Positions 29,341-50,488 of a stretch of DNA of 64,000 nt are shown here, piece by piece; position 1 is the first letter of the stretch; each line of letters starts with the position of its first letter. Below the pieces are notes generated by a model. It was not told the DNA's origin. It was given only the letters and a program-made list of their open reading frames with translations, and made no database searches. Position numbers and translations under genes: made by a program. The DNA is from an uncultured Lachnospiraceae bacterium (GTDB taxonomy: Bacteria; Bacillota; Clostridia; Lachnospirales; Lachnospiraceae). The DNA lies in the NCBI GenBank assembly GCA_902775555.1, contig CACYMQ010000011.1, forward strand, positions 1 to 64,000, written 5' to 3'.

Positions 29341-29433
29341 TGGAACGACTGGGGACGGAGGTGGAACGATTGGGGACGGTTCTGGGCGTCCCAGAACCGT
29401 CCCCAATCGTCCCACCGTCCCCAATCGTCCCAC
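29341..29433. repeat. Palindromic repeat copy 1 (RAYT-associated family)
   Basis: Core arms GGAACGATTGGGGACGG and CCGTCCCCAATCGTCCC flank TTCTGGGCGTCCCAGAA; a second arm unit extends each side. Central orientation GGGCGTCCC. Starts 31 bases after the glycerate kinase stop. Confidence 0.95.
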
Positions 29434-29550
29434 AATCAGAAGACAACGGAGACCTACGAGATCGCCAATTACAGTGCGAAGGATGTAGGGAAGAGGTGTA
29501 CGGTATACGAGCATGACGGCAAGGTTATCGTCGACGCGGTTGAAAGATAG
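29434..29550 (+). pseudogene. Possible C-terminal gene remnant next to the repeat
   Basis: The frame downstream of the repeat reads TETYEIANYSAKDVGKRCT then VYEHDGKVIVDAVER and stops. It looks like ordinary coding sequence but has no start of its own; upstream it runs into the palindromic repeat. It may be the tail of a gene cut by arrival of the repeat. Confidence 0.3.
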
Positions 29551-29608
29551 TATTTAAGCCGGAAGACTGATAGATGAGATACTTTTCCCTGACAGGAGGG
29601 TGTTTGGC

Positions 29609-30706
29609 ATGGATGATCGAATTGTGAATATAATTACTTTAGAATCGAAAAGAAACGTCAAAGGAAATTTCAGGAAGCGGTTTTTCGATACAACTATCGA
29701 TATGGTCTTCGGTATCTATTTTTTTCTGTGGGTGCTGATCCTTATTGCTCTTTTCATCTTTTGGCTTGCTCTTTCAAACAAAAGCGTTGAAAATGTCTAC
29801 AGCGAATATGAAGTAACATACGTAGATTATGCTCCGGGTTTATCCAGAGGTGAAGACTGTACGGTAAAAGTAAAAGAGGTGATAAAAAAAACTTCGATCA
29901 CTGAACGAGAATATGCTCCAAGAAAAACAGTAAATTATCATGGTGAGACGGTTGATTTAACCCAGGAAGAAGACCGGGGAGAAATGATAGACAGAGCGTA
30001 TTATTGGATTCGGGATGATAAAGGAAACACCGGTGTGCTTTTTTTGGAGGGCGCCCAGATAGATCGTTTTGAAAAACTGAAAACGAGCGGGGAATTATAT
30101 GAAACAACGTTATATGGGGAGATTGTAGAACGATCGATAACAACCGGGTATGATGTAGATGATATCAGTACAAAGAATATAAAAAAGGCAAATGAGTCAG
30201 TCGAACTTTCACAGGAATTGGAAGGTGAGACCATTATGCATGTGAATTTTGGGAAGAGAAGTACCAAGTGGTTGAAGTCCGGTGAGAAAACAGTTTATCC
30301 ACGGTATTTCATACCGTCATTAATAGCCCTAATTGTTGTGATCACGCTGTACTTGTTTGTTAAATACGGGTTTAAGAATTATTTTAAAAAAGGCGTAAAG
30401 GAATCAGAGGAAGATGAAATAGTTTTTGAGGAGATCAGTAAGTTGCTTCGAAAGAGACTCCAAATGGAGAATACTCCCGAAGAAGAAAATATGTGTCTCT
30501 TTATCCGGCAGTTACTGAATAACAAAGACGGATGGTATGCCATTCATGCAAAAACCATTACAGAGATACTGATCTTTTTGGGCGTTGAGAGTGAAGAAAA
30601 GAGACAAGATATGTATGAGATGATCCATTTTCCGATGAATGAAGCGATGTATGGAGGCAGAGATCTCATCTTTATGAAGAAAAATCAAGGCTCGGACCAT
30701 TCATAG
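29609..30706 (+). CDS. Membrane protein of unknown function, 365 aa
   Basis: Two membrane helices: about residues 30-55 (FGIYFFLWVLILIALFIFWL) and about 235-260 (IPSLIALIVVITLYLFVKY), enclosing an outside domain of about 180 residues, with a soluble C-terminal tail of about 100 residues. CAGGAGGG lies eight bases before the ATG at 29609, making it better than the GTG at 29600. The 3-prime end overlaps the converging gene at 30685 by 22 bases. No family recognised. Confidence 0.7.
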   Translation: MDDRIVNIITLESKRNVKGNFRKRFFDTTIDMVFGIYFFLWVLILIALFIFWLALSNKSVENVYSEYEVTYVDYAPGLSRGEDCTVKVKEVIKKTSITEREYAPRKTVNYHGETVDLTQEEDRGEMIDRAYYWIRDDKGNTGVLFLEGAQIDRFEKLKTSGELYETTLYGEIVERSITTGYDVDDISTKNIKKANESVELSQELEGETIMHVNFGKRSTKWLKSGEKTVYPRYFIPSLIALIVVITLYLFVKYGFKNYFKKGVKESEEDEIVFEEISKLLRKRLQMENTPEEENMCLFIRQLLNNKDGWYAIHAKTITEILIFLGVESEEKRQDMYEMIHFPMNEAMYGGRDLIFMKKNQGSDHS

Positions 30707-31188
30707 TCCGTTTCAATGGTTGCGTTTGTACAGCATTCTTTGAGTTCGGATAAAATGGGGCGGAAGGCTTCCGTATCGGGGATATCAAATGAATAAATCG
30801 CCCGATCGGTTTCGATGTTGATTCGTTCTATGATTTCTTTTCGGGTGATTGTTTCCGGGGATTTATTATCCTTTTGATTTACGAATTCCTGGCGACCCCA
30901 AATTTGGATCCTGGTTACATTTTCGCAGGGGATTTTTCCTTCAGCCCATAAGCCGGTTGCCGTGATATTTCCGTCTGTGATTTTGAGCTTGGTTTTGCCG
31001 GGGACCTTGTATTGATAATTTTTGGATCGGAGATACCAAAGATCACGAATGATAACATAGACTACGGGAATCATACATATTAACCAGGCGACAAGAGGGG
31101 CCTGAATGACTAAGAAAAGGACAAGGAGTCCTATAAATACTATGCCTAAAGTTATCAGTTCATTGATCAGGTCGCGTTTTGATTTCAT
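30685..31188 (-). CDS. Small membrane protein with PH-like domain
   Basis: 167 residues. Two adjacent N-terminal membrane helices (LITLGIVFIGLLVLFLVI and VAWLICMIPVVYVIIRDLWY) precede a beta-rich domain (KLKITDGNITATGLWAEGKI, then VTRIQIWG) and a C-terminal helix (FRPILSELKECC). This is the general plan of bacterial PH/YcxB-like membrane proteins. It converges with and overlaps the 3-prime end of the previous gene. Function unknown. Confidence 0.65.
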   Translation of the reverse strand: MKSKRDLINELITLGIVFIGLLVLFLVIQAPLVAWLICMIPVVYVIIRDLWYLRSKNYQYKVPGKTKLKITDGNITATGLWAEGKIPCENVTRIQIWGRQEFVNQKDNKSPETITRKEIIERINIETDRAIYSFDIPDTEAFRPILSELKECCTNATIETDYEWSEP

Positions 31189-31279
31189 ACCGTTTTGGAT
31201 CCTTCCAAAGAGTATAGCGAGATAAAAGGTAATGTAAGCTTTTTCAGTATATCATGCCTGGAAAAGAAAGGGAAGAAGA

Positions 31280-32434
31280 ATGACAACAGGTACCGTGGAT
31301 TATATGACGGAGTTTTTATTGTTTCTTTTTCCGGTGGCGATTGTCACGATTCTTGTGTTCGGGGCCGGCGTGAAGAAGAAGGGTGAATATAGCGGGGAAG
31401 CCTGGAGTCTTGGACAGGCCAAGGCACTTCAGGCATTTGCCGCGTTGATGATCATTCTTCATCATCTGGTTCAGACCATCACACAGTATGGCTCTGTGAA
31501 GAAAGGGCCGGTGACCATATGGAATTCCTTCGGGATCCTGTTCACGAGCGTCTTCTTTTTCTTCTCCGGCTACGGACTGTACAAAAGGTATAAGACCGGG
31601 GAGGATTACCTGAAGGGTTTTCTGCGTCATCGCTTTCTGAAGGTTCTGATCCCTTTTCTTCTGACAAATGTCATCTACCTCTGTGTCTTTGCCGGTGACA
31701 GGATCTCCGGTGTATGGCAGGGCATTACGGCAATATTCGGATGTCCTCTTCTGAACCGAAATGCCTGGTATGTGATCGAACTGCTCCTGCTGTACATCGC
31801 ATTTTATGTGTGTTTTCGTTTCATCGGGTCTGAGCGTGTAGCAATGCTCTGCCTTACCGGATTTACGATCCTGCTCATCATCATTTCCCTGTTGCTCGGA
31901 CATGCCGCTATGTCTGTCAACCGCCCATGGTTTATGGGGGAGTGGTGGTACAATACGACATTTATGTTTATAGTCGGCATGTTTGTGGCAATGCATGAGG
32001 TACGGATCAGGGCGGCGGTGGAGAAGGTGTACAAGCTACTGCTTCCGCTTACGGTGCTCATTTTCATCGGATGGTTCCTGTTGGAGCAGTTTGTGGATGG
32101 ACGATTCGGTTATTACAGGGAATGGCCGGGGCATCCGGGATATCCGGAGAAGTTCATTACACTTCTGGTGCAGATCGTGCTCTGCATACTTTTCCTGTCC
32201 GTTCTGCTGCTGGTGAATCTGAAGGTGGAGTTTCATAACCGGGTACTCCTCTTCCTCAGCGGAATCAGCTACGAGATCTATCTGATCCATGAATTGTTCC
32301 GGGAAGTGCTGCCCGGTGGGCCGGACGGATCCCTGCCGGATCCTCTGTACCTTCTGCTGGTGTACGTCTTGTCTGTTGTGGCGGCGTGGCTGCTGTCGTT
32401 TGTGGATAGAAAGATGATCAGGGTAGTCAGGTGA
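31280..32434 (+). CDS. Membrane acyltransferase, acyltransferase-3 (OafA-like) family
   Basis: A 384-residue integral membrane protein with about ten hydrophobic helices. The start of the acyltransferase-3 domain is clear: LGQAKALQAFAALMIILHHL with the conserved His, then SVFFFFSGYGLYKRYKTG and a basic FLRHRFLKVLIPFLL loop. Such enzymes transfer acetyl or other acyl groups to cell-surface sugars. The ATG follows AAAGGGAAG. It has no glycan genes beside it, so the substrate cannot be inferred. Confidence 0.85.
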   Translation: MTTGTVDYMTEFLLFLFPVAIVTILVFGAGVKKKGEYSGEAWSLGQAKALQAFAALMIILHHLVQTITQYGSVKKGPVTIWNSFGILFTSVFFFFSGYGLYKRYKTGEDYLKGFLRHRFLKVLIPFLLTNVIYLCVFAGDRISGVWQGITAIFGCPLLNRNAWYVIELLLLYIAFYVCFRFIGSERVAMLCLTGFTILLIIISLLLGHAAMSVNRPWFMGEWWYNTTFMFIVGMFVAMHEVRIRAAVEKVYKLLLPLTVLIFIGWFLLEQFVDGRFGYYREWPGHPGYPEKFITLLVQIVLCILFLSVLLLVNLKVEFHNRVLLFLSGISYEIYLIHELFREVLPGGPDGSLPDPLYLLLVYVLSVVAAWLLSFVDRKMIRVVR

Positions 32435-32445
32435 TGCGGTTGAGA

Positions 32446-32510
32446 TGGGACGGAGGTGGGACGATTGGGGACGGTTCTGGGCGTCCCAGAACCGTCCCCA
32501 ATCGTCCCAC
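32446..32510. repeat. Palindromic repeat copy 2
   Basis: Left side carries GGGACGGAGG plus the core; right side ends at CCGTCCCCAATCGTCCCAC. Central orientation GGGCGTCCC. Lies 12 bases after the acyltransferase stop. Confidence 0.95.
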
Positions 32511-32577
32511 CCCGCCGCCCCGTCGCCCAGCTCAGAACCGCTCAGAACCATCTCAACCGTATAGAAAGGGTGAATTT

Positions 32578-33498
32578 ATGAATGAACAAATGCTTATGAT
32601 CGAGAAGTTGCGTAAGAGGGTTCTCTGGCAGTATATCGTGATGATCATAATACCGATAGCTGCAGGGATCGCGGCGATCGTCACGCTTCGCGGAAGTATG
32701 ATGTCAGGGGGAGTGCCGCTTGTTATTGTCGGTTCCATGACTCTGCTTTTTATTGTCTTTTTGATAACCAGTTCAAAAGCAAAGAAGAAATTCCGGACAT
32801 ACTACAAAGCGAATTACATTAATGCCATGATCAAGGAAGTGATCCCCACCGGGCAGTACCTGCCGGATCAGGGGTTTCCGAGTGCAATGATCTCCAATAC
32901 CGGTCTCATTTCCATGGGAAATATTTATCATAGCGAGGACCTGATCACCGGCGTTTACAACAATGTTGAATTCCGGCGGGCAGATCTTTTGATCCAGGAT
33001 GAAACGAGAGATTCGGATGGCAACACAACAACCGCCACGTATTTCCGGGGGCGGTGGATGGTCTTTGAATCGAATAAATACTTTGAGGCGGATCTGCAGA
33101 TCATTCAGAAAGGCTTTGGATACGCACAGAAGAGGACGGGCATTTTCACAAGAAAGACAGATCGCCGGCATGCGATTGATACTGAAGACGTGACATTTAA
33201 CAAGGAATTTAAATGTCTGTGCCAGAATGATCAGGAGGCGTTTTATCTGCTGACGCCGGTCCTGATGCAGGGGCTGATGCGGCTTGCGGCGGAAAGCGAC
33301 GGCAAGATCATGGTGGGATTCGTGAATAATCTGATCCATGTGGCGATCAAGTCCAATAAGGATTCCCTGGAGCCACCGGTATTTCACCGGGTATCAGACA
33401 AAGATATCCGGGAGATCCAGAGAGAGATTCATGCGGTTACATCCTTTGTCGAAGGGATGCGGATCGATAATAAGATCTTTATGCAGACAAAGTATTGA
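32578..33498 (+). CDS. DUF3137-like membrane protein
   Basis: 306 residues. Two N-terminal membrane helices (QYIVMIIIPIAAGIAAIVTL and GVPLVIVGSMTLLFIVFLI) precede a long cytoplasmic domain resembling DUF3137: Y-x-D-NVEFRRADLL-like segment (VYNNVEFRRADLLIQDE), FRGRWMVFESNK, and MRLAAESDGKIMVGFVNN near the end. Start at 32578 after AGAAAGGG; the longer frame would translate repeat copy 2 and is rejected. Function of the family is not known. Confidence 0.75.
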   Translation: MNEQMLMIEKLRKRVLWQYIVMIIIPIAAGIAAIVTLRGSMMSGGVPLVIVGSMTLLFIVFLITSSKAKKKFRTYYKANYINAMIKEVIPTGQYLPDQGFPSAMISNTGLISMGNIYHSEDLITGVYNNVEFRRADLLIQDETRDSDGNTTTATYFRGRWMVFESNKYFEADLQIIQKGFGYAQKRTGIFTRKTDRRHAIDTEDVTFNKEFKCLCQNDQEAFYLLTPVLMQGLMRLAAESDGKIMVGFVNNLIHVAIKSNKDSLEPPVFHRVSDKDIREIQREIHAVTSFVEGMRIDNKIFMQTKY

Positions 33499-33510
33499 GA
33501 TGAGTGAAGC

Positions 33511-33625
33511 GGTACGATTGGGGACGGAGGTGGGACGATTGGGGACGGTTCTGGGACGCCCAGAACCGTCCCCAATCGTCCCACCTCCGTCCCCGGTCGT
33601 CCCACCAATCGTCCCACCAATCGCA
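33511..33625. repeat. Palindromic repeat copy 3, downstream of RAYT
   Basis: Full two-unit arms: GGGACGGAGGTGGGACG on the left and its inverse on the right, with extra CCAATCGTCCCA units trailing. Central orientation GGGACGCCC, opposite to copy 4 on the other side of the transposase. Confidence 0.95.
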
Positions 33626-33641
33626 CAACTCATCCTTCCCG

Positions 33642-34391
33642 TTACTGCGATTCCTGCCGGAGGCGGCGCATACTGATTCCGGTAAGGCGATGGATCTGGA
33701 CGAGGCTTATTCTCTGAGATAACGCTTTTTTTATTACGGCCGTCCTTCTTTCGGGAGAGTACTTTTGAAAATCCCCGGGCTCTGAAATGTTCGCGATCTG
33801 CTTCAGAAGCTCGGAAGCTTCTTCGTCGGAAAGCTTTTTCTTTATGTTGTCGAGATCCATACATTCGTCTTCATTTTCCTCGTCATGAAAGCTTTTGAAA
33901 TTGTCGGGGTCTATGTAACTTCGTACGACATTGGAGCTGATCAGGGTTTGGGATGTAAAATACCCCGGATAGCTGCTGTAAGGATATTCTTCCGGCTTCC
34001 TTACCATCATCGCCTTCACCGGGTTGCGGTGAATGTATCGGATTGCAGTAAGGAAATACCGTTCGTCCTCCACGGTCTCGCTTAGGTATCGATCCTGAAA
34101 TAGATGGCCGACTCTTTCGTATTTCCAATTGAACCAGGATGCATAACGTGAACCGATACATTTCATGATCCGCTCCAGATCGGAGAACTCCGTTCGTAAC
34201 AGAAGATGTACATGATTAGGCATCAGGCAATATGCATAAAGGTCGAAATGTACCTGCTCCTTGCAGTCAGAAAGAAACTGGAGGTATTTCTGATAGTCTT
34301 CCTGGTGCTCAAATATCTTTTGCTTATTGATTCCCCGAACCATGATATGGTAAACACCTGTTTCGCTTGCGATTCTTCTTTGTCTGGGCAT
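33642..34391 (-). CDS. REP-associated tyrosine transposase (RAYT, Y1 HUH family)
   Basis: A 249-residue Y1 transposase of the TnpA-REP type. N-terminal VYHIMVRGINKQKIFEH matches the first strand of the fold; YCLMPNHVHLLLR holds the His-x-His metal motif near residue 60; ERVGHLFQDRYLSE and the conserved YIHRNPVKAMMV follow near 95-125, the latter region carrying the nucleophile area. A C-terminal HTH-like end (RISLVQIHRLTGISMRRLRQ) could bind DNA. AAGGAGG precedes the ATG. Repeat copies 3 and 4 flank it in opposite orientation, the typical arrangement in which such enzymes mobilise or maintain their REP elements. Confidence 0.93.
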   Translation of the reverse strand: MPRQRRIASETGVYHIMVRGINKQKIFEHQEDYQKYLQFLSDCKEQVHFDLYAYCLMPNHVHLLLRTEFSDLERIMKCIGSRYASWFNWKYERVGHLFQDRYLSETVEDERYFLTAIRYIHRNPVKAMMVRKPEEYPYSSYPGYFTSQTLISSNVVRSYIDPDNFKSFHDEENEDECMDLDNIKKKLSDEEASELLKQIANISEPGDFQKYSPERRTAVIKKALSQRISLVQIHRLTGISMRRLRQESQ

Positions 34392-34415
34392 ATTTTACCT
34401 CCTTGGGGATGGCAG

Positions 34416-34493
34416 GGTGGGACGATTGGGGACGGTTCTGGGCGTCCCAGAACCGTCCCCAATCGTCCCACCTCCGTCCCTAATCGTTCCACT
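34416..34493. repeat. Palindromic repeat copy 4, upstream of RAYT
   Basis: GGGACGATTGGGGACGG core with matching right arm, then CTCCGTCCCTAATCGTTCCA. Central orientation GGGCGTCCC. Lies 25 bases upstream of the transposase ATG. Confidence 0.95.
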
Positions 34494-34507
34494 CCGATTG
34501 TTACAAT

Positions 34508-34723
34508 TTACAAAAGATCCCCCGGGTTATCGATGGTCTCGCTAAAATATACGTAATACGCCAGCATGCGGGGGATATATTCCGGTGGCGTTCTGCGGCC
34601 GGATTCCCATTCTTCCAAAGTTCGAAGCGGAATGCCATATTTCTGGCTGAATTCTGTACGGGAAAGGCCGGTTTTCCTGCGGATGTTTTGTATGATTTCC
34701 TTTGGATCTTTTTTTGAATCCAT
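34508..34723 (-). CDS. Small XRE-type HTH regulator
   Basis: 71 residues, essentially one helix-turn-helix domain: IIQNIRRKTGLSRTEFSQKY followed by IPLRTLEEWESGRRTPPEYI, a pattern of Cro/XRE and antitoxin-type regulators. AGGAGG lies before its ATG on the minus strand. It reads away from the Wadjet operon, separated by a 190-base gap plus repeat copy 5, so it could control that operon or itself. No toxin partner is visible. Confidence 0.8.
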   Translation of the reverse strand: MDSKKDPKEIIQNIRRKTGLSRTEFSQKYGIPLRTLEEWESGRRTPPEYIPRMLAYYVYFSETIDNPGDLL

Positions 34724-34910
34724 GCGAACCTCCTTTTTTCAGTTGGAATATAGATGCCTGTTTGTTATAATTTTCTTATGAAAATAGTCGAAAGGTGATG
34801 TTGATTGTGCGCTGAACTGAGGACCGGGGCGGAAATTGTTGTGTGTACTTTGCGATGTACTCAATGCGTGGTTTTACTGTAGCATATAGTTTTGACAAAA
34901 TCAAGGGAAA

Positions 34911-34989
34911 AGTGGGACAACTGGGGACGGTTCTGGGACGCCCAGAACCGTCCCCAATCGTCCCACCTCCGTCCCCAATCGTTCCACCC
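34911..34989. repeat. Palindromic repeat copy 5, before jetA
   Basis: Left arm GGGACAACTGGGGACGG is slightly diverged from right arm CCGTCCCCAATCGTCCC; right side has the second unit ending TCGTTCCA. Central orientation GGGACGCCC. Ends 28 bases before the jetA start, so it is probably in the transcript leader. Confidence 0.95.
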
Positions 34990-35017
34990 AGTTCGCTGTC
35001 GTCCTGCAGGAGTGTCT

Positions 35018-36418
35018 ATGGCAAAGAATCTTTTTGAAATCCTGCCGATGGATTTCTATAAACCACTCACAAGTAAATACCGTAGAATGTATGCGGATAC
35101 CATACTCCTGATCTACAATACCTTCAGGTCGGAGATTTCCTATGGCGTGAGTCGGGAGATCATCGTGGCGGCGCTGACAGAGTATTTTGATGCGGATGAT
35201 GACGAGATCACTTTCGATGAGGAAACTTATGTACGGGATTCCAGGGAAAAGGCAAACGGCGTGATCGCGAGCCTGAAATCTGCGGGTTGGCTGGAGTATG
35301 AGCAGGCGGAGAATCATCAGCTGAATGTGGTGATGTTTGAGTATGCGATCCCAATCATTGAGAGCATGAACCGGGTGATCAAAGAGGAAGAGGCAGAGTA
35401 TCAGGGGATCATTTCGCAGATTTATTCCACGCTTCAAAATGAGGAGCTTCTCGCCAAGCCATATGAACTGATCATTATGGGAGTGCAGGAAAATACGGAC
35501 AGACTGGTGTCGGAGCTGAAGCGGCTGAATGTCAGTATCAAGCGGCACATGGATAAGCAGACAAATGATATGGAGGCAAATGAGGTACTGGAGCATTTCT
35601 TCAAATATCACCAGGATATTGGCTCCAAAGCTTACCTTCGGATGAAGACGGCGGAGAATATCGCTTATTTCCGAAGCTCGATCATCGACCGCATCGACCA
35701 GATGCTGGCGAGCAGCGAGATCATCGAGCGAGCGGTGGCAGGATGCATGGAGGTTCGGAAGCTCTCGAGTCATGATACCGCTTATGATCAGGTGCTGAGT
35801 GAACTGATGGACATAAAGTCCGCATTTTACCGGCTGGACGATATTATTCATGAGATAGATGCCAAGCATACCAAATATATGCGAAATGCCGTGCGCCGTG
35901 CCCAGTTCCTTCTGGCAACGGGAAATAATCTGGAGGGGAAGCTTTCCAAGATCCTGAACGCTATGGCGGATGAAATGAATAAAAATGAGGATGCTCTTTT
36001 GCAGGATCCGGCTGAAGGGGAAGCACCTCAGGTGTCCCTTTTCCCGCAGCGGTACATTTCCGGGGAGTCCCTGAAGACGATCCCCACGAAGAAGAAAACA
36101 GCGGATATCGGCGGGATCGACATGACACCGGTGATGAGCGACGAGGAGCGGGCGCTGTATAAAGAGGCGCTACGACAGAAGAATCGCCGGAGGTTTACGC
36201 GTAAAAATGTGAATGCTTACGTGGAGGAACTGCTGAAGGACCGGGAGAAGGTCCCGGTTACGGAGATTGAGGTGGGAGATCTGCGGGATCTGATCCGCCT
36301 TGTCTATGTCAGCATTTATGCCGGAAATACGGCGAATGTGTATAAGGTAAGAAGATCCATGCGGCGGGTGAAGATCGGGGAATATACAATGCCGTATTTC
36401 GAGATCCTGCGGAGATGA
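35018..36418 (+). CDS. jetA: Wadjet protein JetA (DUF5716-like)
   Basis: A 466-residue helical protein, the kleisin-like subunit of the Wadjet condensin that detects and restricts small circular plasmids. N-terminal LFEILPMDFYKPLTSKYRRM and a winged-helix-like first 100 residues precede long coiled-coil segments (about 110-310), and a C-terminal helical part ends near MRRVKIGEYTMPYFEIL. The DUF5716-like form points to the type III Wadjet group, as far as I can judge without a search. Start at 35018 after AGGAG; a longer frame would translate the repeat. jetB follows 94 bases later. Confidence 0.85.
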   Translation: MAKNLFEILPMDFYKPLTSKYRRMYADTILLIYNTFRSEISYGVSREIIVAALTEYFDADDDEITFDEETYVRDSREKANGVIASLKSAGWLEYEQAENHQLNVVMFEYAIPIIESMNRVIKEEEAEYQGIISQIYSTLQNEELLAKPYELIIMGVQENTDRLVSELKRLNVSIKRHMDKQTNDMEANEVLEHFFKYHQDIGSKAYLRMKTAENIAYFRSSIIDRIDQMLASSEIIERAVAGCMEVRKLSSHDTAYDQVLSELMDIKSAFYRLDDIIHEIDAKHTKYMRNAVRRAQFLLATGNNLEGKLSKILNAMADEMNKNEDALLQDPAEGEAPQVSLFPQRYISGESLKTIPTKKKTADIGGIDMTPVMSDEERALYKEALRQKNRRRFTRKNVNAYVEELLKDREKVPVTEIEVGDLRDLIRLVYVSIYAGNTANVYKVRRSMRRVKIGEYTMPYFEILRR

Positions 36419-36512
36419 TTACATCGGAGGTTTCATCATTTGGCGTCGGACCGGGAGTCTTCGTGCAAAGACCGGGGCTCACACCCGTCCGCCACATTTT
36501 GGAGGAAAATGA

Positions 36513-37148
36513 ATGTTTGAGGAATTTGAGAAGATCACTACATCCGTGGCCGAGAAGGAGAGGTTTCGGGTGGCGGCGAATAAACTGCTGAACCAGTGTT
36601 TCCTCCTCAAGAAGAAAGAGGATACGCGGAAGGATTATATCTATGTGCGGGAGAACAAAGAGGCGTTCAGAACCTATTTCGACCTGCTGGGTTATAATCT
36701 ACGGATCAACGAAGACCAGGGGGTGCTGGGCATTTACAGTGAGTATGACACCGGCCGGCTTTCACTCACGAAAATGGAGAGCATTTTTCTTTTGATCCTC
36801 CGTCTGCTATACATAGAAAAGCGAAAGGAGATTTCCAGTTCCTATGAGGAAGTGGTGGTCCTGATGGAGGAGATCCGTGAGAAGTATTCCATACTTAAGA
36901 TCAAAACGAAGCCCAATATGGATAAGATCACGGAACGGAATATGATCTCGCTTTTTCGGAAATACAACATCCTTCGGAGCCTGGATTCCGATGTGAATCA
37001 GGCGGATACGAGGATCGTGATCTACCCGTCGGTGCTGATGGCCGTTACGGTGGACGACATCAACGCCTACTATGAAATGACAGAGAAGAAGCTGCAGGGG
37101 TACGCCGGTTCGGGTGGGAAGATGGAGGAAGAGGATCTGGAAGGGTAG
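36513..37148 (+). CDS. jetB: Wadjet protein JetB (DUF4194)
   Basis: A 211-residue winged-helix protein, equivalent to the MukE/KITE subunit that binds the JetA-JetC ring. Visible features are AANKLLNQCFLLKKKEDT near residue 24, YFDLLGYNLRINEDQGVLGI near 50 and LTKMESIFLLILRLLY near 85, typical of DUF4194. TGGAGGA precedes the ATG. A four-codon mini-frame ATGAATGTTTGA overlaps the start. Repeat copy 6 begins ten bases after its stop. Confidence 0.88.
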   Translation: MFEEFEKITTSVAEKERFRVAANKLLNQCFLLKKKEDTRKDYIYVRENKEAFRTYFDLLGYNLRINEDQGVLGIYSEYDTGRLSLTKMESIFLLILRLLYIEKRKEISSSYEEVVVLMEEIREKYSILKIKTKPNMDKITERNMISLFRKYNILRSLDSDVNQADTRIVIYPSVLMAVTVDDINAYYEMTEKKLQGYAGSGGKMEEEDLEG

Positions 37149-37157: not shown

Positions 37158-37233
37158 GTGGAACGATTGGGGACGGTTCTGGGCGTCCCAGAACCGTCCC
37201 CAATCGTTCCACCTCCGTCCCCAATCGTCCCAC
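37158..37233. repeat. Palindromic repeat copy 6, between jetB and jetC
   Basis: Core arms are GGAACGATTGGGGACGG and CCGTCCCCAATCGTTCC: the G-to-A change on the left is matched by C-to-T on the right. Right side carries a further CTCCGTCCCCAATCGTCCCA unit. Central orientation GGGCGTCCC. Confidence 0.95.
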
Positions 37234-40479: not shown

Positions 40480-40556
40480 GTGGGACGACTGGGGACGGTT
40501 CTGGGACGATTGGGGACGGTTCTGGAACGCCCAGAACCGTCCCCAATCGTCCCACC
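40480..40556. repeat. Palindromic repeat copy 7, between jetC and jetD
   Basis: The left arm unit is partly duplicated (GGGACGACTGGGGACGG, then GGGACGATTGGGGACGG), and the centre TTCTGGAACGCCCAGAA has one unpaired change. It begins five bases after the jetC stop and ends 25 bases before jetD. Confidence 0.95.
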
Positions 40557-41828: not shown

Positions 41829-41911
41829 GGATGACTGGTGGGACGATTGGGGACGGTTCTGGGCGTCCCAGAACCGTCCCCAATCGTCCCACCGTCCCCA
41901 ATCGTCTCACT
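41829..41911. repeat. Palindromic repeat copy 8, after jetD
   Basis: Core arms GGGACGATTGGGGACGG and CCGTCCCCAATCGTCCC, plus CCGTCCCCAATCGTCTCA on the right. Central orientation GGGCGTCCC. Starts six bases after the jetD stop and ends 24 bases before the radical SAM gene. Confidence 0.95.
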
Positions 41912-43850: not shown

Positions 43851-43853
43851 GTT

Positions 43854-43948
43854 TGGAACGACAGGGGACGGAGGTGGAACGATTGGGGACGGTTCTGGGC
43901 GTCCCAGAACCGTCCCCAATCGTTCCACCTCCGTCCCCAATCGTTCCA
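43854..43948. repeat. Palindromic repeat copy 9
   Basis: Core arms GGAACGATTGGGGACGG and CCGTCCCCAATCGTTCC, again a matched pair of changes; outer units GGAACGACAGGGGACGG and CCGTCCCCAATCGTTCC. Central orientation GGGCGTCCC. Begins four bases after the deaminase fusion stop. Confidence 0.95.
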
Positions 43949-43986
43949 AAGCAATCTGTATTTATAATTGGTTAGGAGGTGCTGTG

Positions 43987-44598
43987 ATGGTTTCAGTTCC
44001 AATGGCTTTGGTGGATTATATACCGGTGGTGTTGTACAGCATATCTGCCGTAATACTGCAGAGATATTTTTATGACAGGATGAGCAGGGGGGCATTTGCC
44101 CTTCTCTCGGCCGGTATGATCATGAGTATCATGGCCGGACTGTTCAAGGCTACATGGAAACTGCTGTTTGCCCTTGGGGTCTGTGATTTTGACAGGCTTA
44201 ACAAGTCCTTTTTTCCCTTGCAGTCGGTAGGGTTCCTCCTGGCCGGTATAGCTCTTATGCTTATGGTTTTTACAAGGCAGAAAGGAACTTCTTTACACAG
44301 TGCTGCGCCCGCAGTTTTTGCCGGTACAGGTGTTTTTATCGCGCTCATGGTCCTGGGTCTTTGCGGTATGTTTCTTGGCTTATCGGTTGAGGCTAAACGC
44401 AGGAAGAAGAAATCGGCAATGGTTTTGTTTATCATCACATTTGTGTTCATGCTCATGATGGGTTATCTGTCATCAAAGAATTTTGAGAAGGCTTCCATGA
44501 ACTGGATATCCGAGGGTGTGAACGTTATGGGATGGAGTATTTTCCTTATGGGATCAAGGATACTGAGCGGTGCCGGGAAAGAAAAGGAAAGCATCTAA
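43987..44598 (+). CDS. Integral membrane protein, 203 aa
   Basis: Six likely membrane helices (for example YIPVVLYSISAVILQRYF, ALLSAGMIMSIMAGLFKA, VFIALMVLGLCGMFLGLSV) with short loops and a basic KRRKKKSA loop that should be cytoplasmic. TTAGGAGG lies before the ATG. No family recognised. Its stop overlaps by four bases the end of a converging gene fragment. Confidence 0.7.
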   Translation: MVSVPMALVDYIPVVLYSISAVILQRYFYDRMSRGAFALLSAGMIMSIMAGLFKATWKLLFALGVCDFDRLNKSFFPLQSVGFLLAGIALMLMVFTRQKGTSLHSAAPAVFAGTGVFIALMVLGLCGMFLGLSVEAKRRKKKSAMVLFIITFVFMLMMGYLSSKNFEKASMNWISEGVNVMGWSIFLMGSRILSGAGKEKESI

Positions 44599-45248
44599 CG
44601 TACGCCGCTGAACTGAAAGTCGGCATACAGGAGGTTGTGATCGGAGCATTTCGTTTCCGATACTCCGCTTGAAAGCTCGGTGAAGCCTTCGCTTACCACG
44701 ATGTTATCGATAGCCACATTCCAGCGATGAAAGGTGGTATAACTTCGGCCAGGGCGATTGACATAGTAGGCGGCATCCAGATGGGTGATATCCTCGAGAT
44801 GAAAGCTGTTGAGATCGCCGAGAAGAGCATAATTGTCAAATGTGTCCAGCATGCCGGCTATGGCTCCCATCTGATCGATCACCAGTGAACGGCCGTTGTT
44901 GGAAAGATGTGTCACGAGCACGTGAAGCTTTACACCATCCACGGAAATGACAGCGTGTCCTACGGAGCGGTCTTCGCCGATTTCTGTATACAGGGGGATG
45001 ACATCAAATTGTTCTATGGGATAGCGGGAGAGCAGTGCCGTGCCGTATTCTCCGTCACCGAGGGAGATCGCCTTTGCAAAAGCGTGGTAAGGATAGCCGG
45101 CCAGTCGGGCAAGCTCTGCCGGTTCGTCAGCATATCCGGAGCGCTCACATCCCACATCAACCTCCTCGAGACCGATGATATCGGGAGATACTGAAAGAGG
45201 ATCATGGACATATCGGGAAAATGTACGGATTCCTCGTCCTTGTTGCAT
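44595..45248 (-). pseudogene. Endonuclease/exonuclease/phosphatase family protein, N-terminally truncated
   Basis: 217 codons. DIIGLEEVDVGCERSGYADE gives the catalytic Glu, LVTHLSNNG and LGDLNSFHL the later motifs, and CSDHNLLYADFQF the terminal Asp-His of the family. The normal first strand (a T-F-N segment with metal-binding Asn) is missing: residues before the Glu are only about 25 and unlike the family, and an upstream stop in frame closes it. An ATG in another frame starts MKVKMANATRTRNPY, hinting at a lost junction. Head-to-head with a transporter fragment that is also N-terminally cut. Confidence 0.65.
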
Positions 45249-45299
45249 TTGCCATCTTCACTTTCATAACCGGCACGGGACTTTCTTACGCCCGTTTGA

Positions 45300-45620
45300 A
45301 TGCGCAGGAGCTGCTCGCAGATCGTCGATACGGAAAGCATAGTTCCGTTTCTATGCGTAGGATATCTGATGACGGCATTTGCGCGGGACCCGTATGTGAC
45401 CATCGTTCAGAATATGTCGCTGGACAGCAGTGAGGCGCGAAGACAGAAGAATATCCTGGTTGCGTTGAATGGGGCCAAAAAGATCGGGGCGCTGGTCCTG
45501 TCGGCCGTGGCGACCCTGTTCGTGGAGCATGGATCCATAGCTGCCGTCATGATGCTGATGACCGCGGTTGCGGGGGTAGATATCCTGCTGAGCGTGATCA
45601 TCTGGCGCCGATCGAAATGA
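45300..45620 (+). pseudogene. Fragment of an MFS-type transporter (C-terminus)
   Basis: About 100 codons contain two helices (KKIGALVLSAVATLFVEHG and IAAVMMLMTAVAGVDILLSV) and end IIWRRSK, like the last helices of a major-facilitator transporter. Upstream, the frame is closed by a stop directly before the first ATG, though 45221-45300 in another frame still reads as a hydrophobic helix (FLVLVAFAIFTFITGTGL). The front of the gene is gone, probably by the same deletion that truncated the neighbouring phosphatase-family gene. Confidence 0.55.
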
Positions 45621-45625
45621 TCATG

Positions 45626-45718
45626 GTACGACAGGGGACGGAGGTGGAACGACAGGGGACGGAGGTGGAACGATTGGGGACGGTTCTGGGCGTCCCAGAA
45701 CCGTCCCCAATCGTTCCA
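45626..45718. repeat. Palindromic repeat copy 10
   Basis: The left outer unit (GGGGACGGAGGTGGAACG-type) is present twice; core arms GGAACGATTGGGGACGG and CCGTCCCCAATCGTTCC are matched. The right outer unit is absent. Central orientation GGGCGTCCC. Confidence 0.95.
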
Positions 45719-45753
45719 TCCCGGGTGTGACAGTTCTGTGACAAAGGCTATGC

Positions 45754-45759
45754 TATGAT
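45754..45759 (+). promoter_or_regulatory. Extended -10 promoter for a short leader or small RNA
   Basis: TGCTATGAT supplies an extended -10 (TATGAT at 45754-45759). No convincing -35 is seen at 17 bases, which is common for extended -10 promoters. The next elements are two hairpins, the second ending in a T tract. Confidence 0.4.
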
Positions 45760-45765
45760 GTGATC

Positions 45766-45857
45766 GTACAAAAGAATTGTACACCCTAAAACCTTCCCCC
45801 AACTTTACCAAAAGAACCCGGTTCATCAACAGCGGATGATGAATCGGGATTCTTTTT
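45766..45857 (+). ncRNA. Candidate small RNA of about 90 bases ending at a terminator
   Basis: From the predicted start there is a perfect 6-bp hairpin (GTACAA, loop AAGAA, TTGTAC; 45766-45782), a C-rich single-stranded stretch (CCTTCCCCCAAC) and a long hairpin at 45810-45856 (AAAAGAACCCGGTTCATC against GATGAATCGGGATTC plus T run). No ORF is present. It lies upstream of an independent promoter for the ABC genes, so it may be a free small RNA or an attenuated leader. No known family recognised. Confidence 0.35.
45810..45857 (+). terminator. Hairpin terminator upstream of the ABC operon
   Basis: Arms AAAAGAACCCGGTTCATC and GATGAATCGGGATTCTTTT pair over about 17 positions with small mismatches, followed by the T run at 45852-45856. 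Confidence 0.65.
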
Positions 45858-45885
45858 GAGGGGGAAGACTATTTTCAAGTTATCC

Positions 45886-45913
45886 TTGCACGCATCTTCA
45901 AAATATGTATAAT
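45886..45913 (+). promoter_or_regulatory. Sigma-A-type promoter of the ABC transporter operon
   Basis: TTGCAC at 45886-45891 and a perfect TATAAT at 45908-45913 are 16 bases apart, with TATG just before the -10. Transcription would start about 80 bases before the TTG start of the ATPase gene. Confidence 0.8.
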
Positions 45914-46003
45914 GTAAGGAAGTAACTGCAGACGGACCTTTTCTCCGTATGTATTTTCGCGTTGGGGCGAAAGGTGGTATGCCGAAAGGGAGGTAAAAAA
46001 GCT

Positions 46004-46828
46004 TTGGGCGAAACAGTACTGGAACTGAAAGACATCAAAAAGTACTACGGCCAGCACAAGGTTTTGAAGGGCGTAAATATGACCGTCAACAAGGGTGATA
46101 TTTACGGACTTGTAGGTAAGAACGGTGCCGGTAAGACAACGCTTTTCAAGGTTGTACTCGGTCTCTCCAGAACAAATGGTGGAACGGTATCCATTTTTGG
46201 AGGTCAGAACAACAGAGAGAATAACAGAAACCGCAGAAGGATCGGATTCTTCGTAGGTGCCAATTTCTATGGGTATCTGAATGCCAGACAGAATCTGGAT
46301 TATTTCCGGAGACTGAAGGGTATCAAGGATCCGAAAGAGGTGGATCGCGTACTTGAAATTGTAGGTTTAAATACAGATGCGGCGAAGAAACCGGCGAAAA
46401 TGTATTCTCTGGGTATGAAGCAGCGTCTCGGGATTGCAAATGCCATGCTGGGCAATCCGGAGCTTCTGATCTTCGATGAGCCCACAAATGGTCTGGATCC
46501 TCAGGGTATCATGGACGTCCGCCATATGATCCAGCATGTAAATGAGGAGTACGGAACGACGATCATCGTATCCTCTCACATCCTGGGTGAGTTGGAGCAT
46601 ACCGCTCACCGGTTCGGTATCGTACATGAGGGCATCCTGATGAAGGAAATGTCCCAGGAGGATATGCGGACGCAGAGCAAGATCACTTCCATCAATGTAA
46701 ATGACGCCGACGTGGAGAAGGCGCTTCAGCTGTTGAAGGACGGTGGAATTGAAGTAAAGGGAACCGAGCAGGCGACCACTTCTCTGGAGGACTTCTACTT
46801 CGGATTGATCGGAGGTGGCGAAGAATGA
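46004..46828 (+). CDS. ABC transporter ATP-binding protein
   Basis: A 274-residue ATPase of the drug/bacitracin-type two-gene ABC systems. Walker A GKNGAGKTT is near residue 38, signature YSLGMKQRLGIANAML near 133 and Walker B LLIFDEPTNGLDPQG near 153; the His switch is in VSSHILGELE. The start is TTG at 46004 with GGGAGG nine bases upstream; the in-frame codons before it lack a ribosome site. It overlaps the permease gene by four bases. Energises export by, or protection through, the partner permease. Confidence 0.92.
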   Translation: MGETVLELKDIKKYYGQHKVLKGVNMTVNKGDIYGLVGKNGAGKTTLFKVVLGLSRTNGGTVSIFGGQNNRENNRNRRRIGFFVGANFYGYLNARQNLDYFRRLKGIKDPKEVDRVLEIVGLNTDAAKKPAKMYSLGMKQRLGIANAMLGNPELLIFDEPTNGLDPQGIMDVRHMIQHVNEEYGTTIIVSSHILGELEHTAHRFGIVHEGILMKEMSQEDMRTQSKITSINVNDADVEKALQLLKDGGIEVKGTEQATTSLEDFYFGLIGGGEE

Positions 46829-47715
46829 TGAGACGAATTGTACTTACGGACCTGCGCCGTGCGCAGAGAAAGAAGAGCTACATCATCTGCATGTCGATTG
46901 TGGTACTGCTGATGTTGATCGTATGCATCTTTTCTTTCGTCAGACCTTCCTCTTCGGAAGCTTTGGCGGCACAGACGAGAGAAACAAGCGGAAGGGCGCT
47001 TCAGTTCCTGGACAGCATAGGGATCGCATTTTCTATGCTCCCGTTCCTGGTGGGAATCCCCATTTTCCAGACCGTATTCTCCGATGACTTCAAGAGCCGC
47101 ACCATGCAGACGGCCATCGGACGTGGCATTTCCAGAAGAAGACTGGTACTTGCCAGATTCTATGAGGTGATCGCACTGCTCATCGAGGCGTGCCTGATCT
47201 TCACCGTGATCGGTATCATCATGGGTATTATCATGGGTGCTTCCATCGGCGGACTGGCATCCATGACGGGAAGCCTCTTCTTTGATGCGATCCTGGTCGT
47301 TTCAAATATGTCGATCGCGATGCTGATCCTGTATATGTCACAGAATACGACAGGCGGCCTGGTTATGTACATCCTGCTTGCAGCGGATGTCTTCCGTATG
47401 ATCCTCGCACTGGCGGATATGATCCCGTTCCTGAAGAACAATGATATCAAGCTCTCCAACATCCTTCCCGGCGGCGTACATCAGCTTGCAAGAAATAACC
47501 TGTTCGGCTATGTTCCGACGTTCTCCGATATCGCGGCCAACAATGAAGGGCTGAAGGAGGGAAGCCAGGCGGCACTTCAGAAGATCCTTGAGGAAACCAT
47601 CGAGCCGAATTATCTGAAGGCATTATTGTATATCTGCATATTGGTGGGTGTATTCATCATCCTCCCGCTGGTACTTGCACAGGTTGTATTCAGAAAGAAA
47701 GAACTGGAATTCTAA
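46825..47715 (+). CDS. ABC transporter permease
   Basis: A 296-residue ABC-2-type permease with about six membrane helices, beginning with SYIICMSIVVLLMLIVCIFS. FSDDFKSRTMQTAIGRGISRRRLV at about 90-113 is the typical coupling region of this class, followed by helices VIALLIEACLIFTVIGIIMGI and ILVVSNMSIAMLILYM. ATG overlaps the ATPase stop (ATGATGA), so translation is coupled. A strong terminator follows. Substrate unknown. Confidence 0.9.
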   Translation: MMRRIVLTDLRRAQRKKSYIICMSIVVLLMLIVCIFSFVRPSSSEALAAQTRETSGRALQFLDSIGIAFSMLPFLVGIPIFQTVFSDDFKSRTMQTAIGRGISRRRLVLARFYEVIALLIEACLIFTVIGIIMGIIMGASIGGLASMTGSLFFDAILVVSNMSIAMLILYMSQNTTGGLVMYILLAADVFRMILALADMIPFLKNNDIKLSNILPGGVHQLARNNLFGYVPTFSDIAANNEGLKEGSQAALQKILEETIEPNYLKALLYICILVGVFIILPLVLAQVVFRKKELEF

Positions 47716-47774
47716 ATGCGGATCGATCCGTATGGCAAATGTGCCGCATTTTCTCATATGTGATCGGTACAGAG

Positions 47775-47807
47775 GACGGGAACGAAAAAGGTTCCCGTCT
47801 TTTTTTG
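47775..47807 (+). terminator. Rho-independent terminator of the ABC operon
   Basis: GACGGGAAC pairs perfectly with GTTCCCGTC across a seven-base loop and is followed by seven T. Confidence 0.92.
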
Positions 47808-47880
47808 TGTAAGCGCGTGCAGTATGTTATACTGAGATATGATCAAGCAGAGGAACTATCAAATGTGCGGGAGGACGCGT

Positions 47881-48816
47881 ATGAGCGGGACAGACGGGAA
47901 TACAAAAAAAGAGAAGGAACTTCGGGAGATCAGTATCACGGACTGCCCTGAGATCGGCAGAGGTGCGCACGGGATCGTTTACCGGATCGCGCCGGATATG
48001 CTGGTGAAGGTTTATTATCCGGGTATCTCCCTGGACAGGATCAAAATGGAACGGGAGCTGGCCAAGTGGGCGTTCGTGAAAGGGATACCCACCGCGATCC
48101 CATTTGACATCGTGCGTGTGGGAGAGCAGTACGGTACGGTATTTGAACTGCTGGATGCGACTTCGTCCGTGGATTATATCGGGGAAGCGCATGAGAATCT
48201 GGATGAATTCATCCGACAGTCGGTGGAGCTGATGAAGCAGGTGCATGCAGTGGAAGCCGAAAGGGGCGAGCTTCCGGATATGAAGCGGCAGACGATGGGA
48301 TGGCTGGAGAAGGTGAAGGGGAAGCTCCCCGACGAATTATTTGACCGACTGTGCGTGCTTGTAAATGAGGTGCCGGACCGGTGGACGATCCTTCATGCAG
48401 ACTTCCATCTGAAGAATATCATGGTTGCCAAGGAAGGACTGATGCTCATTGATATGGACACGCTCTGTACCGGGGACCCGATCTTTGAACTGTCGACCGT
48501 TTACGTGTCCTATCGTCAGTTCCCGTCCATCGACCCCATGGCGGCGGAGATCCTGGGGATCGATGTCGAGACGGCGGCTTATATAGCAGACCGCACATTT
48601 GAACTGTATCTCGGCGAGACCGACCGGAAGACGATGGAGGATACGGTAAGAAAGGCGCGGATCCTCGGATGTGTCCGGATCATAGATTACATGGACAGGC
48701 ATCGGGATCATCCGGCGACGGAAATGTGCATCGGACGGTGTCTGCAGGATCTGACGAAGGATCTGGGAGAACTCTGCGGGAAATCCGCGGGAGGTCATCG
48801 TGAAACTGCTGAATGA
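47881..48816 (+). CDS. Aminoglycoside phosphotransferase-like small-molecule kinase
   Basis: 311 residues with a protein-kinase-like fold. IGRGAHGIVYRI is the nucleotide loop, VKVYYP carries the Lys, LHADFHLKNIM is the catalytic loop (Ala where true aminoglycoside kinases have Gly) and LIDMDTLC the metal Asp. This fits the TIGR02172-type group found in anaerobes rather than a resistance enzyme. The start at 47881 has GGGAGG six bases upstream; 47839 is a weaker alternative. It overlaps the next gene by 17 bases. Confidence 0.87.
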   Translation: MSGTDGNTKKEKELREISITDCPEIGRGAHGIVYRIAPDMLVKVYYPGISLDRIKMERELAKWAFVKGIPTAIPFDIVRVGEQYGTVFELLDATSSVDYIGEAHENLDEFIRQSVELMKQVHAVEAERGELPDMKRQTMGWLEKVKGKLPDELFDRLCVLVNEVPDRWTILHADFHLKNIMVAKEGLMLIDMDTLCTGDPIFELSTVYVSYRQFPSIDPMAAEILGIDVETAAYIADRTFELYLGETDRKTMEDTVRKARILGCVRIIDYMDRHRDHPATEMCIGRCLQDLTKDLGELCGKSAGGHRETAE

Positions 48817-49675
48817 GTATCTTCGGGAGACCTTCGGGTGCAAGGTATACAAGATCGCTCTGGATGCGGGCTTCACCTGCCCCAACAGGGACGGGACCCT
48901 CGGCACGGGCGGATGCATCTTCTGTTCCGCCGGAGGGAGCGGTGAATTCGCCGGAAGCAGGACCAGGAGCATCACGGAGCAGATCGAAGAGGGAAAGCGG
49001 CGTGTCGGCCGGAAGATCCGGGACGGGCGGTACATCGCATATTTTCAGGCGTATACAAATACGTACGGGCCGGCGGAACATTTGCGTGAACGGTACATGG
49101 AAGCGATCGAACACCCGGACATCGCGGCAGTATCCGTAGCCACAAGGCCGGACTGCCTTCCGGGGGAGGTGCTGGACCTGCTGGAGAGCTGCAACCGGAT
49201 CAAACCGGTCTGGGTCGAACTGGGCCTGCAGACCGTACATCCGGGATCGGCAGCCTATATCCGGAGAGGGTACGGACTCCCGGTTTACGACAGCGCCGTG
49301 AGAGAGCTGAGAGCCCGGGGGCTGGAAGTGATCACCCATGTGATCCTGGGTCTGCCCGGGGAGACGGTCTCCGACATGCAGGAAACGGTGCGATATGTAT
49401 GCGGCAGCGGGGCCACCGGCATCAAGCTGCAGCTGCTCCACGTGCTCCGGGGGACGGATCTGGAGAAGGAATATGCGGAGGGGAAAGTGCATGTCCTCTC
49501 CGAGGACGAATATATAGAGATCCTGAAGGCCTGCGTGCCGCTCGTCCCGGAAAATGTGGTGATACACCGCCTGACCGGAGACGGAGACAAGCGACTTCTG
49601 CTGGCGCCTCTTTGGAGCGGGGACAAGAAGCATGTATGGAACAGGATCCGGAAGGAAGTACTTTCCATAGGATGA
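48800..49675 (+). CDS. yhcC: Radical SAM protein of the YhcC/TIGR01212 family
   Basis: A 291-residue radical SAM enzyme. The cluster motif is the variant CPNRDGTLGTGGCIFC near residue 29 (wide first spacing), as in the YhcC group. RYIAYFQAYTNTYGP, VATRPDCLP and LGLQTVHP follow as in the family. Its reaction is not firmly known. It starts with GTG at 48800, with GGGAGG upstream inside the kinase gene, and is likely co-translated. The next gene begins five bases after the stop codon starts its frame end. Confidence 0.93.
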   Translation: MKLLNEYLRETFGCKVYKIALDAGFTCPNRDGTLGTGGCIFCSAGGSGEFAGSRTRSITEQIEEGKRRVGRKIRDGRYIAYFQAYTNTYGPAEHLRERYMEAIEHPDIAAVSVATRPDCLPGEVLDLLESCNRIKPVWVELGLQTVHPGSAAYIRRGYGLPVYDSAVRELRARGLEVITHVILGLPGETVSDMQETVRYVCGSGATGIKLQLLHVLRGTDLEKEYAEGKVHVLSEDEYIEILKACVPLVPENVVIHRLTGDGDKRLLLAPLWSGDKKHVWNRIRKEVLSIG

Positions 49676-49679
49676 GCGT

Positions 49680-50207
49680 ATGAAGAAACAGACGGGATTC
49701 GACCGGGCACTGGCCGATTTTGTAAATGATATGGCGAGCGGGGATGCGGTAAGGCATTTGGCGGACAGCGGGATGACGGTGAGTGAGATCGCAGCCCGTC
49801 TTTCTTTTCCCACGGAGAAGAAACGTGTCGCGGAAATGGTATGGAAGCATTTTCTGAATACGGGAAAGATCCGCTTGGAAGCGCCGGAGGAAGACCGGGG
49901 AAACCGGGGTAAGAAGATTTCCTACGTCAGAGAAGAGGGGCCTTACGGCAAGGTGTCCTTCCGACGGGTGACCGAGGAGCTGCCGGCAGCCGGGACCGGG
50001 TATGTGCGATGCAGCTTCGGAAGAGAAATGTACCGGGATGAAGAGGGCTTCCGCAGAAGGCTGGAAGCGCTTGATCCGTCGGACCGGGAGTATATCCTGG
50101 ACCTGCCATGGCCGCTTACGGATGTATGGCACGTCGCGGATGAGCGGATGAACCGCATAGATAAGATCCTTCGCTGCGCTCAGGATGACAACAAGATGTC
50201 GAGATGA
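49680..50207 (+). CDS. Hypothetical HTH-containing protein; tail derived from a repeat
   Basis: 175 residues. Residues about 18-60 look like a helix-turn-helix (DSGMTVSEIAARLSFPTEKK, then VWKHFLNTGKIRL). The rest contains YVREEGPYGKVSFRRV and FGREMYRDEEGFRRRLEAL, not recognised. The last 13 residues (ILRCAQDDNKMSR) are encoded by a copy of the second repeat family, so the original stop has been replaced by repeat sequence. It follows yhcC by four bases and a terminator lies 24 bases after it. Confidence 0.7.
   Translation: MKKQTGFDRALADFVNDMASGDAVRHLADSGMTVSEIAARLSFPTEKKRVAEMVWKHFLNTGKIRLEAPEEDRGNRGKKISYVREEGPYGKVSFRRVTEELPAAGTGYVRCSFGREMYRDEEGFRRRLEALDPSDREYILDLPWPLTDVWHVADERMNRIDKILRCAQDDNKMSR
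50157..50195. repeat. Second repeat family, short copy inside a gene end
   Basis: AAGATCCTTCGCTGCGCTCA then GGATGACAAC matches the half-unit seen at 25703 and in 54080-54272. It lies within the last codons of the preceding gene. Confidence 0.65.
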
Positions 50208-50230
50208 CACCGGGGCGCCGGGATGACAAC

Positions 50231-50284
50231 AAAAATCCGGTGACACCTACCTCTTGAGGAGGGCGGTATCACCGGATTCTTTTT
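50231..50284 (+). terminator. Rho-independent terminator
   Basis: AAAAATCCGGTGACACC pairs with GGTATCACCGGATTCTTTTT through a 17-base loop, with one mismatch, and ends in five T. Closes the kinase-yhcC-HTH operon. Confidence 0.85.
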
Positions 50285-50306
50285 GTGGGGTGGGTTGATT
50301 GGGGTG

Positions 50307-50395
50307 AGACGATTGGGGACGGAGGTGGGACGATTGGGGACGGTTCTGGGACGCCCAGAACCGTCCCCAATCGTCCCACCTCCGTCCCCAATCGT
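50307..50395. repeat. Palindromic repeat copy 11
   Basis: Complete two-unit arms on both sides; central orientation GGGACGCCC. Directly abuts copy 12. Confidence 0.95.
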
Positions 50396-50488
50396 GATTG
50401 GGGACGGAGGTGGGACGATTGGGGACGGTTCTGGGACGCCCAGAACCGTCCCCAATCGTCCCACCTCCGTCCCCAATCGTCCCAATCG
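50396..50488. repeat. Palindromic repeat copy 12, tandem with copy 11
   Basis: Almost identical to copy 11 and in the same orientation, so the pair is a recent tandem duplication. Ends two bases before the stop codon of the converging phosphatase gene, where it may act as a 3-prime structure. Confidence 0.95.

Follow-up and report, generated by a model that had tools for sequence, protein, structure and literature searches.

About fifty palindromes in an uncultured Lachnospiraceae bacterium, densest around the single transposase gene by which they are probably spread

The closest known kind of repeat to the family described here appears, from its sequence, to be the TIRtron with its TIRYT transposase (Di Nocera, De Gregorio and Rocco 2013, PMC3733652), the TIRYT class probably being subclass 2.1 of PMC6006769. 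In the parts of these two reports available to us, TIRtron repeats share the word GGGGWSAS, and REP-like sequences are reported not to have been found for the TIRYT branch. The available parts of the work on REPINs and their RAYT transposases (PMC3116915; biochemistry of TnpA-REP in PMC8266576) describe two inverted short units that form one hairpin, many intergenic copies, and a RAYT gene adjoining copies of its own, with clusters adjoining RAYT genes in P. fluorescens SBW25; the spread of REP-like repeats is described in the same portion of PMC8266576 as poorly understood. Here we analyze twelve palindromes and a RAYT/TIRYT gene lying among them at 29.3–50.5 kb of a 64,000-nucleotide stretch of DNA (the window: GCA_902775555.1, contig CACYMQ010000011.1, positions 1–64,000 of the forward strand) from an uncultured Lachnospiraceae bacterium. 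With a probability that we put at roughly 0.7, these palindromes are RAYT-mobilized, REPIN-like, non-autonomous elements of the TIRYT kind.

The locus resembles TIRtrons in pairing a Y1 transposase that carries an HUH motif with GGGGWSAS-like inverted repeats at its flanks, and in having dispersed repeat families that occur as dimers or clusters. It differs in that the box found here, GGGGACGG, fits GGGGWSAS at 7/8 positions (the word GGGGACAG, which does fit, lies beside the RAYT gene of Lachnospiraceae bacterium AC2029), and in that the repeats here are strong hairpins. The architecture of inverted units, intergenic copies and an adjoining RAYT gene is shared with REPINs, whereas the elements here are long palindromes with a 3-nt centre, inserted separately over ∼20 kb, and they lack GTAG: this foot of REP hairpins was found in 0/47 genomic copies (core plus 10 nt outside). 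CGTC-tagged REPs are likewise palindromic and contain CGTC, but in the available part of PMC3733652 their CGTC is unpaired at one end and they have no associated transposase gene, whereas here CGTC is part of the stem, and a RAYT gene lies between repeats.

The initial annotation had placed twelve palindromes in this block and none in the remaining 43 kb of the window, and this was borne out: the half-unit GGGACGATTGGGGACGG (≤3 mismatches) has 40 matches in the window, every one within 29342–50483, compared to a mean of 0.35 and a maximum of 3 in 100 shuffled windows. The core common to the 12 copies is 53 nt long and consists of TGGGACGATTGGGGACGGTTCTGGG followed by a centre of 3 nt, CGT or ACG, and then by the reverse complement of TGGGACGATTGGGGACGGTTCTGGG, giving a 25-bp stem and a 3-nt loop; most copies carry extra 21-nt units outside the core. 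DNA folding of four copies gave z-scores of −8 to −14, and the outer pairs of this genome's arms are near perfectly complementary (9.4/10). The asymmetric centre orients each copy, as had been noticed, with 7 CGT and 5 ACG centres in the window and 25 and 22, respectively, among 47 copies in the genome. The reported arm variants are also as described: GGAACG/CGTTCC in copies 6, 9, and 10, GGGACG/CGTCCC in copies 2, 4, 8, 11, and 12, and mixed arms (GGAACG/CGTCCC) in copy 1. Copies 3, 5, and 7 are also of the GGGACG/CGTCCC type at the variable arm position.

The family is confined to one block in the window and not in the genome (3.0 Mb, 96 contigs), where a covariance model of the 12 cores found at least 47 strong and 3 weak copies, a lower bound given that 150 of 2225 first-look candidates were scored. 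The word ACGATTGGGGACGG (≤1 mismatch) occurs 62 + 66 times in this genome. The block holds the densest cluster, with 12 copies in 21 kb compared to 0.33 expected; when 47 points were placed uniformly in 5000 simulation runs, a 21-kb stretch received at most 7. Smaller clusters lie on contigs C13 (8 copies), C15 (6), and C63 (3). Copies within ∼2.3 kb of contig ends occur on C17, C33, C49, C51, C59, C62, C63, and C79, so that clusters may extend over assembly gaps.

The RAYT gene (33642–34391, reverse strand; 249 amino acids) is bordered by copies 3 and 4, which have opposite orientations: the copy 3 core is 59 bp from the stop codon, and copy 4 lies 27 bp upstream of the start. Its protein matches Pfam Y1_Tnp (1.4e-16) and the NCBIfam model for REP-associated tyrosine transposases, NF047646 (88.1 bits, cut-off 80). 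An AlphaFold2 model (mean pLDDT 89.9), with C-terminal helices present, has as its best PDB match 4er8 (E 9.7e-9), a REP-associated tyrosine transposase with a bound REP hairpin, and the predicted fold is closest to E. coli TnpA-REP. The protein contains HVH at residues 60–62 and Tyr119 within YIHRNP, the latter being, by analogy, the likely catalytic residue; N59, H60, H62, and Y119 are invariant in 24 aligned sequences. TIRYT transposases (subclass 2.1) are marked by a C-terminal helix-turn-helix extension; HTH_23 was found in 8 of 24 sequences, this RAYT not among them. A search of its own genome with the RAYT protein returned a single match, the gene itself. Further Y1_Tnp pieces lie on contigs C63, C27, and C36; that on C63 (L142:14332–14668) represents a second Y1_Tnp gene, split into overlapping pieces of which one has an internal stop and which number two, and was not matched in the RAYT protein search.

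The proposed clustering of copies near the RAYT gene holds in two of the three genomes compared, here and in AC2029, and fails in G039, a member of another family whose densest cluster lies ∼70 kb from its RAYT gene and whose box words are arranged in arrays, tandem as well as inverted, with a step of 34 nt. Covariance-model matches (E ≤0.001) were found in 25 of the 61 genus genomes searched, the source genome included. The RAYT of AC2029 is 52% identical to that of this genome, and AC2029 carries 65 exact related hairpins; 64 of the 65 forward matches, merged into 40 loci, underlie the finding that 7 of at least 40 repeat loci lie within 10.7 kb of its RAYT gene, where 0.22 would be expected. 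The only homologues in the window of the 40 kb around the AC2029 RAYT gene are the RAYT itself and one DUF3137 gene (26% identity). The RAYT gene of G024 has hairpin pairs on either side.

The repeat unit contains a constant box, GGGGACGGTTC. Next to RAYT genes, a box is frequently bracketed by a word X on one side and the complementary word X' on the other, as in a Syntrophomonas (TTGGACAAG-box-TCTTGTCCA) and in G048 (AGGACATTA-box-TTAATGTCC). In 54 loci from 42 genomes selected by RAYT protein alone, the box was present in 28 genomes, X–X' complementarity inside the units was 5.85 compared to 3.84 with genomes permuted (p = 0.001), and the best score reached at least 7 in 17 of the 28 genomes with the box. 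Pairing above that of the permuted genomes indicates that the two sides of the stem vary in concert from species to species. A constant GGGACGGTTC-like box set in a variable stem is widespread, with 28 genomes in this test, and is a trait of much of the group rather than of every member. An earlier test on a hand-picked set (70 loci and the window) gave 4.97 compared to 3.64 permuted (p = 2e-4), with the box in 40 genomes and a best score of at least 7 in 17 of them (1.5 expected); it excluded L082, L083, L085, L106, L109–L123, and, from a set of 27 loci, the duplicates L164 and L165, as well as L174, L175, L177, L178, L182, L188, and L189, the last seven of which are included in the protein-selected repeat. 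In 17/26 loci, the word GGGGAC[AG]G is found at most 350 nt from the RAYT gene. For the source genome, TGGGACG serves as X and CGTCCCA comes from the centre, an arrangement that would account for the asymmetry of the centre. We found no description of a variable stem around a constant box in the portions of the RAYT/TIRYT literature available to us; a literature search with the box words returned, among the matches listed, papers that were all unrelated by title.

The annotated coupling of arm changes holds in part across the genome. At the base it named (core positions 4 and 50), 34 of the 47 copies are matched (20 G-C and 14 A-T, against 7 A-C and 6 G-T; Fisher p = 0.0036), a coupling that is weak and that could be explained by a few alleles that spread. 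The outer spacers are clearer, being matched in 9/12 two-sided copies (3.5 expected, p = 2e-4) and falling into five matched types (AGG/CCT, TCC/GGA, TGG/CCA, TGC/GCA, and none); since 5 of these 9 copies are AGG/CCT, they may share a common descent. A matched change is also visible at an orthologous site on contig C51, where G018 has GGTTCCGGG..CCCGGAACC and this genome has GGTTCTGGG..CCCAGAACC, so that the stem pair is T-A here and C-G in G018.

We infer mobilization by this RAYT from its position, its single copy, the flanking arrangement and the distribution of the repeats. In the mechanism that we favor, each palindrome would consist of two short, inverted transposase-recognition units, and the one RAYT, whose gene lies amid the copies of the block, would spread it. 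In many members of the group, the box placed between X and X' would allow one strand to fold into a hairpin that has the box in its loop or close to it; copying would probably proceed through a single-stranded DNA intermediate, as it does for other Y1 transposases, with the copies left in intergenic DNA. One arm subtype of this genome, that with AGG/CCT spacers, would have spread around the RAYT gene, and the near-identity of copies suggests that spread was recent. The arms might stay complementary either through a requirement of the transposase for a hairpin or through re-templating of one arm from the other; palindromes can be corrected by template switching. A bolder version is tentative and, in our view, rather doubtful: that this RAYT branch reads a constant word in the loop of a freely drifting stem whose two sides change together between species, perhaps through templated arm repair, and that insertion of new copies favors the neighborhood of the transposase gene, which would produce the crowding. 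The family provides a single RAYT match in each genome here, copies that are nearly identical and a readable arm subtype, and its relatives separate the constant box from the variable stem; the questions of what is read by the transposase and of whether copies spread locally thus become testable, and the TIRYT branch gains structure.

A number of results weigh against these proposals. The link between the copies and the RAYT is drawn from position and distribution, and movement was not observed; G034 (80% complete) and G010 (75% complete) carry copies and gave no RAYT match, and the distant cluster in G039 has been mentioned. Coupling at the named base is limited to the 34/47 copies given above, and outside this contig 23/35 are matched, which is not significant (p = 0.09). 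Complementary outer arms (≥8/10 pairs) occur in 5/61 AC2029 hairpins and in 4/7 hairpins from stretches of G034, and matched outer arms are no general rule. A high outer-arm pairing score in 23 genus genomes (7.8 compared to 1.9; the 25 genomes minus 2 without a parsed box pair) is biased, because its loci are the best covariance-model hits and the model rewards pairing, and the wrong box was parsed for the source genome and G019; as all exact AC2029 hairpins give 5/61, we withdrew outer-arm covariation between species as main evidence. In the predicted fold of this genome's isolated half unit, X' is paired to the box instead of to X, and AC2029, G024, and G018 display little X–X' pairing. Without this contig, neighboring copies are no more alike than others (p = 0.32), and the local subtype test in AC2029, on the 36/40 loci with sequence, gave p = 0.11; local spread, if it occurs, is supported in this block alone.

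The expectation that the twelve copies lie between genes holds for 11/12 cores, judged against a list of 19 genes selected from the open reading frames (ORFs), with copy 5 counted as intergenic if jetA begins at its homology start, 35017; it fails for copy 2, which overlaps the long 5' start of a DUF3137 ORF. Copy 1 (29342–29431, forward; core 29362–29414, centre CGT) has one extra unit per side and the mixed arms, and copy 2 (32446–32509, forward; core 32457–32509, centre CGT) a degenerate outer left unit. Copy 3 (33511–33603, reverse; core 33531–33583, centre ACG, with AGG/CCT outer units) and copy 4 (34418–34490, forward; core 34418–34470, centre CGT) enclose the RAYT gene. The segment 34892–41823 inside the block contains a complete-looking Wadjet (JetA–D) defense operon, with hairpins ahead of jetA, in the jetB/jetC and jetC/jetD gaps and past jetD. 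Copy 5 (34913–34985, reverse; core 34913–34965) lies 52 bp before the start of JetA homology; copy 6 (37159–37231, forward; core 37159–37211, GGAACG/CGTTCC) is in the jetB–jetC gap; copy 7 (40481–40554, reverse; core 40502–40554, with a TTC spacer) is in the jetC–jetD gap; and copy 8 (41839–41908, forward; core 41839–41891) is past jetD. Farther along are copy 9 (43855–43947, forward; core 43875–43927, GGAACG/CGTTCC, AGG/CCT outer units) and copy 10 (45625–45718, forward; core 45666–45718, GGAACG/CGTTCC), whose left arm has three units and right arm one. Copies 11 (50306–50395, reverse; core 50326–50378) and 12 (50396–50483, reverse; core 50411–50463) are arranged head-to-tail with an 85-nt step.

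The best-surviving alternative to mobilization around the RAYT gene, although we consider it unlikely, is that the block is a tolerant accessory region in which copies insert as they do anywhere and survive where they are harmless, the cluster and the RAYT gene merely occupying the same safe surroundings, with no local spread. Clusters of 8 and 6 copies exist on C13 and C15 without this RAYT, relatives have segments of the block at dispersed positions, and the G039 cluster is away from its RAYT gene. Against this, AGG/CCT spacers occur in 10/12 block copies compared to 4/35 elsewhere (p = 1e-5), a concentration not expected of copies sampled at random; the remaining 43 kb of the window hold none; and AC2029 is likewise crowded around its RAYT gene in an almost wholly different gene context.

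Less likely still is that selection keeps the palindromes as RNA or DNA hairpins, acting in transcription end, mRNA stability or folding, their mobility being old and irrelevant. This would suit the intergenic position of nearly all 12 copies, several of them between genes of one operon, the strong stems of the four folded copies, and the near perfectly complementary arms. Yet a related Wadjet operon in G062 has no hairpins at its jetB/jetC, jetC/jetD, and post-jetD sites, so that the copies here look like insertions, even though loss from G062 could also explain the difference. Unit number also varies at a 96%-identical locus, where contig C17 of this genome has two more 21-nt units in the left arm than G035, and the near-identity of copies would again suggest recent spread. 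No Rfam family reached its gathering score: a search of 28–52 kb gave 69 matches at E ≤0.1, all below gathering scores and nearly all to microRNA precursors, which we took as chance.

Improbable, and rejected as the main explanation, is a role of the hairpins as recombination adaptors for gene-cassette exchange between species: blocks of 86–98% identity to other species do begin or end at hairpins in several places, but of 44 block ends 4 fall inside a hairpin and 10 lie no more than 100 nt from one, which on a rough, uncomputed estimate does not clearly exceed the level for other intergenic DNA (loci fetched by hairpin match left out, chains <300 bases or <80% identity dropped), and the two G019 cases carry the same 114-nt sequence on their broken side, which makes an inserted mobile element likelier. 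In those cases, on G019 contigs C48 (L249:1–139) and C15 (end of L208), a sequence with 114 nt in common abuts half a hairpin and runs to the contig end, and it is probably an insertion sequence within the hairpins.

The initial annotation had also named copies shared with unrelated plasmids and bearing target duplications as the mark of an ordinary miniature transposon, and neither was seen: a plasmid blastn search with the RAYT region gave no match, and beside simple copies no target duplications were obvious by eye, with no statistical test made; near relatives gave no base-exact empty site. The RAYT protein has 24 matches in plasmid records, all at <60% identity, and one in phage records, and we rejected a plasmid or phage origin on these grounds. 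Seven of the 24 plasmid records were examined (H1, H2, H5, H6, H8, H9, and H10). A hairpin with GGGG in its loop lies near the transposase gene in two, upstream in Collinsella and downstream in Skermanella, and in none of the other five; the Skermanella hairpin is likely due to chance, as the sequence is GC-rich. The word GGGGTCAG is present in the Sporomusa, Rhodospirillum, and Skermanella records.

Two further shared loci concern the hairpins and the Wadjet operon. Contig C33 of this genome (L135) and AC2029 near 3468297 (L154) share 539 bp at 98.3% identity, ending at a hairpin, which from the sequence is probably a recent transfer; at this 98%-identical locus the hairpin centre is inverted between the two genomes. 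In the Wadjet operon on G035 contig C33 (L206), the jetB–jetC and jetC–jetD gaps hold other short A/T-rich repeated words, those in the jetB–jetC gap being ATTGAAACATG-like, where the genome analyzed here has hairpins.

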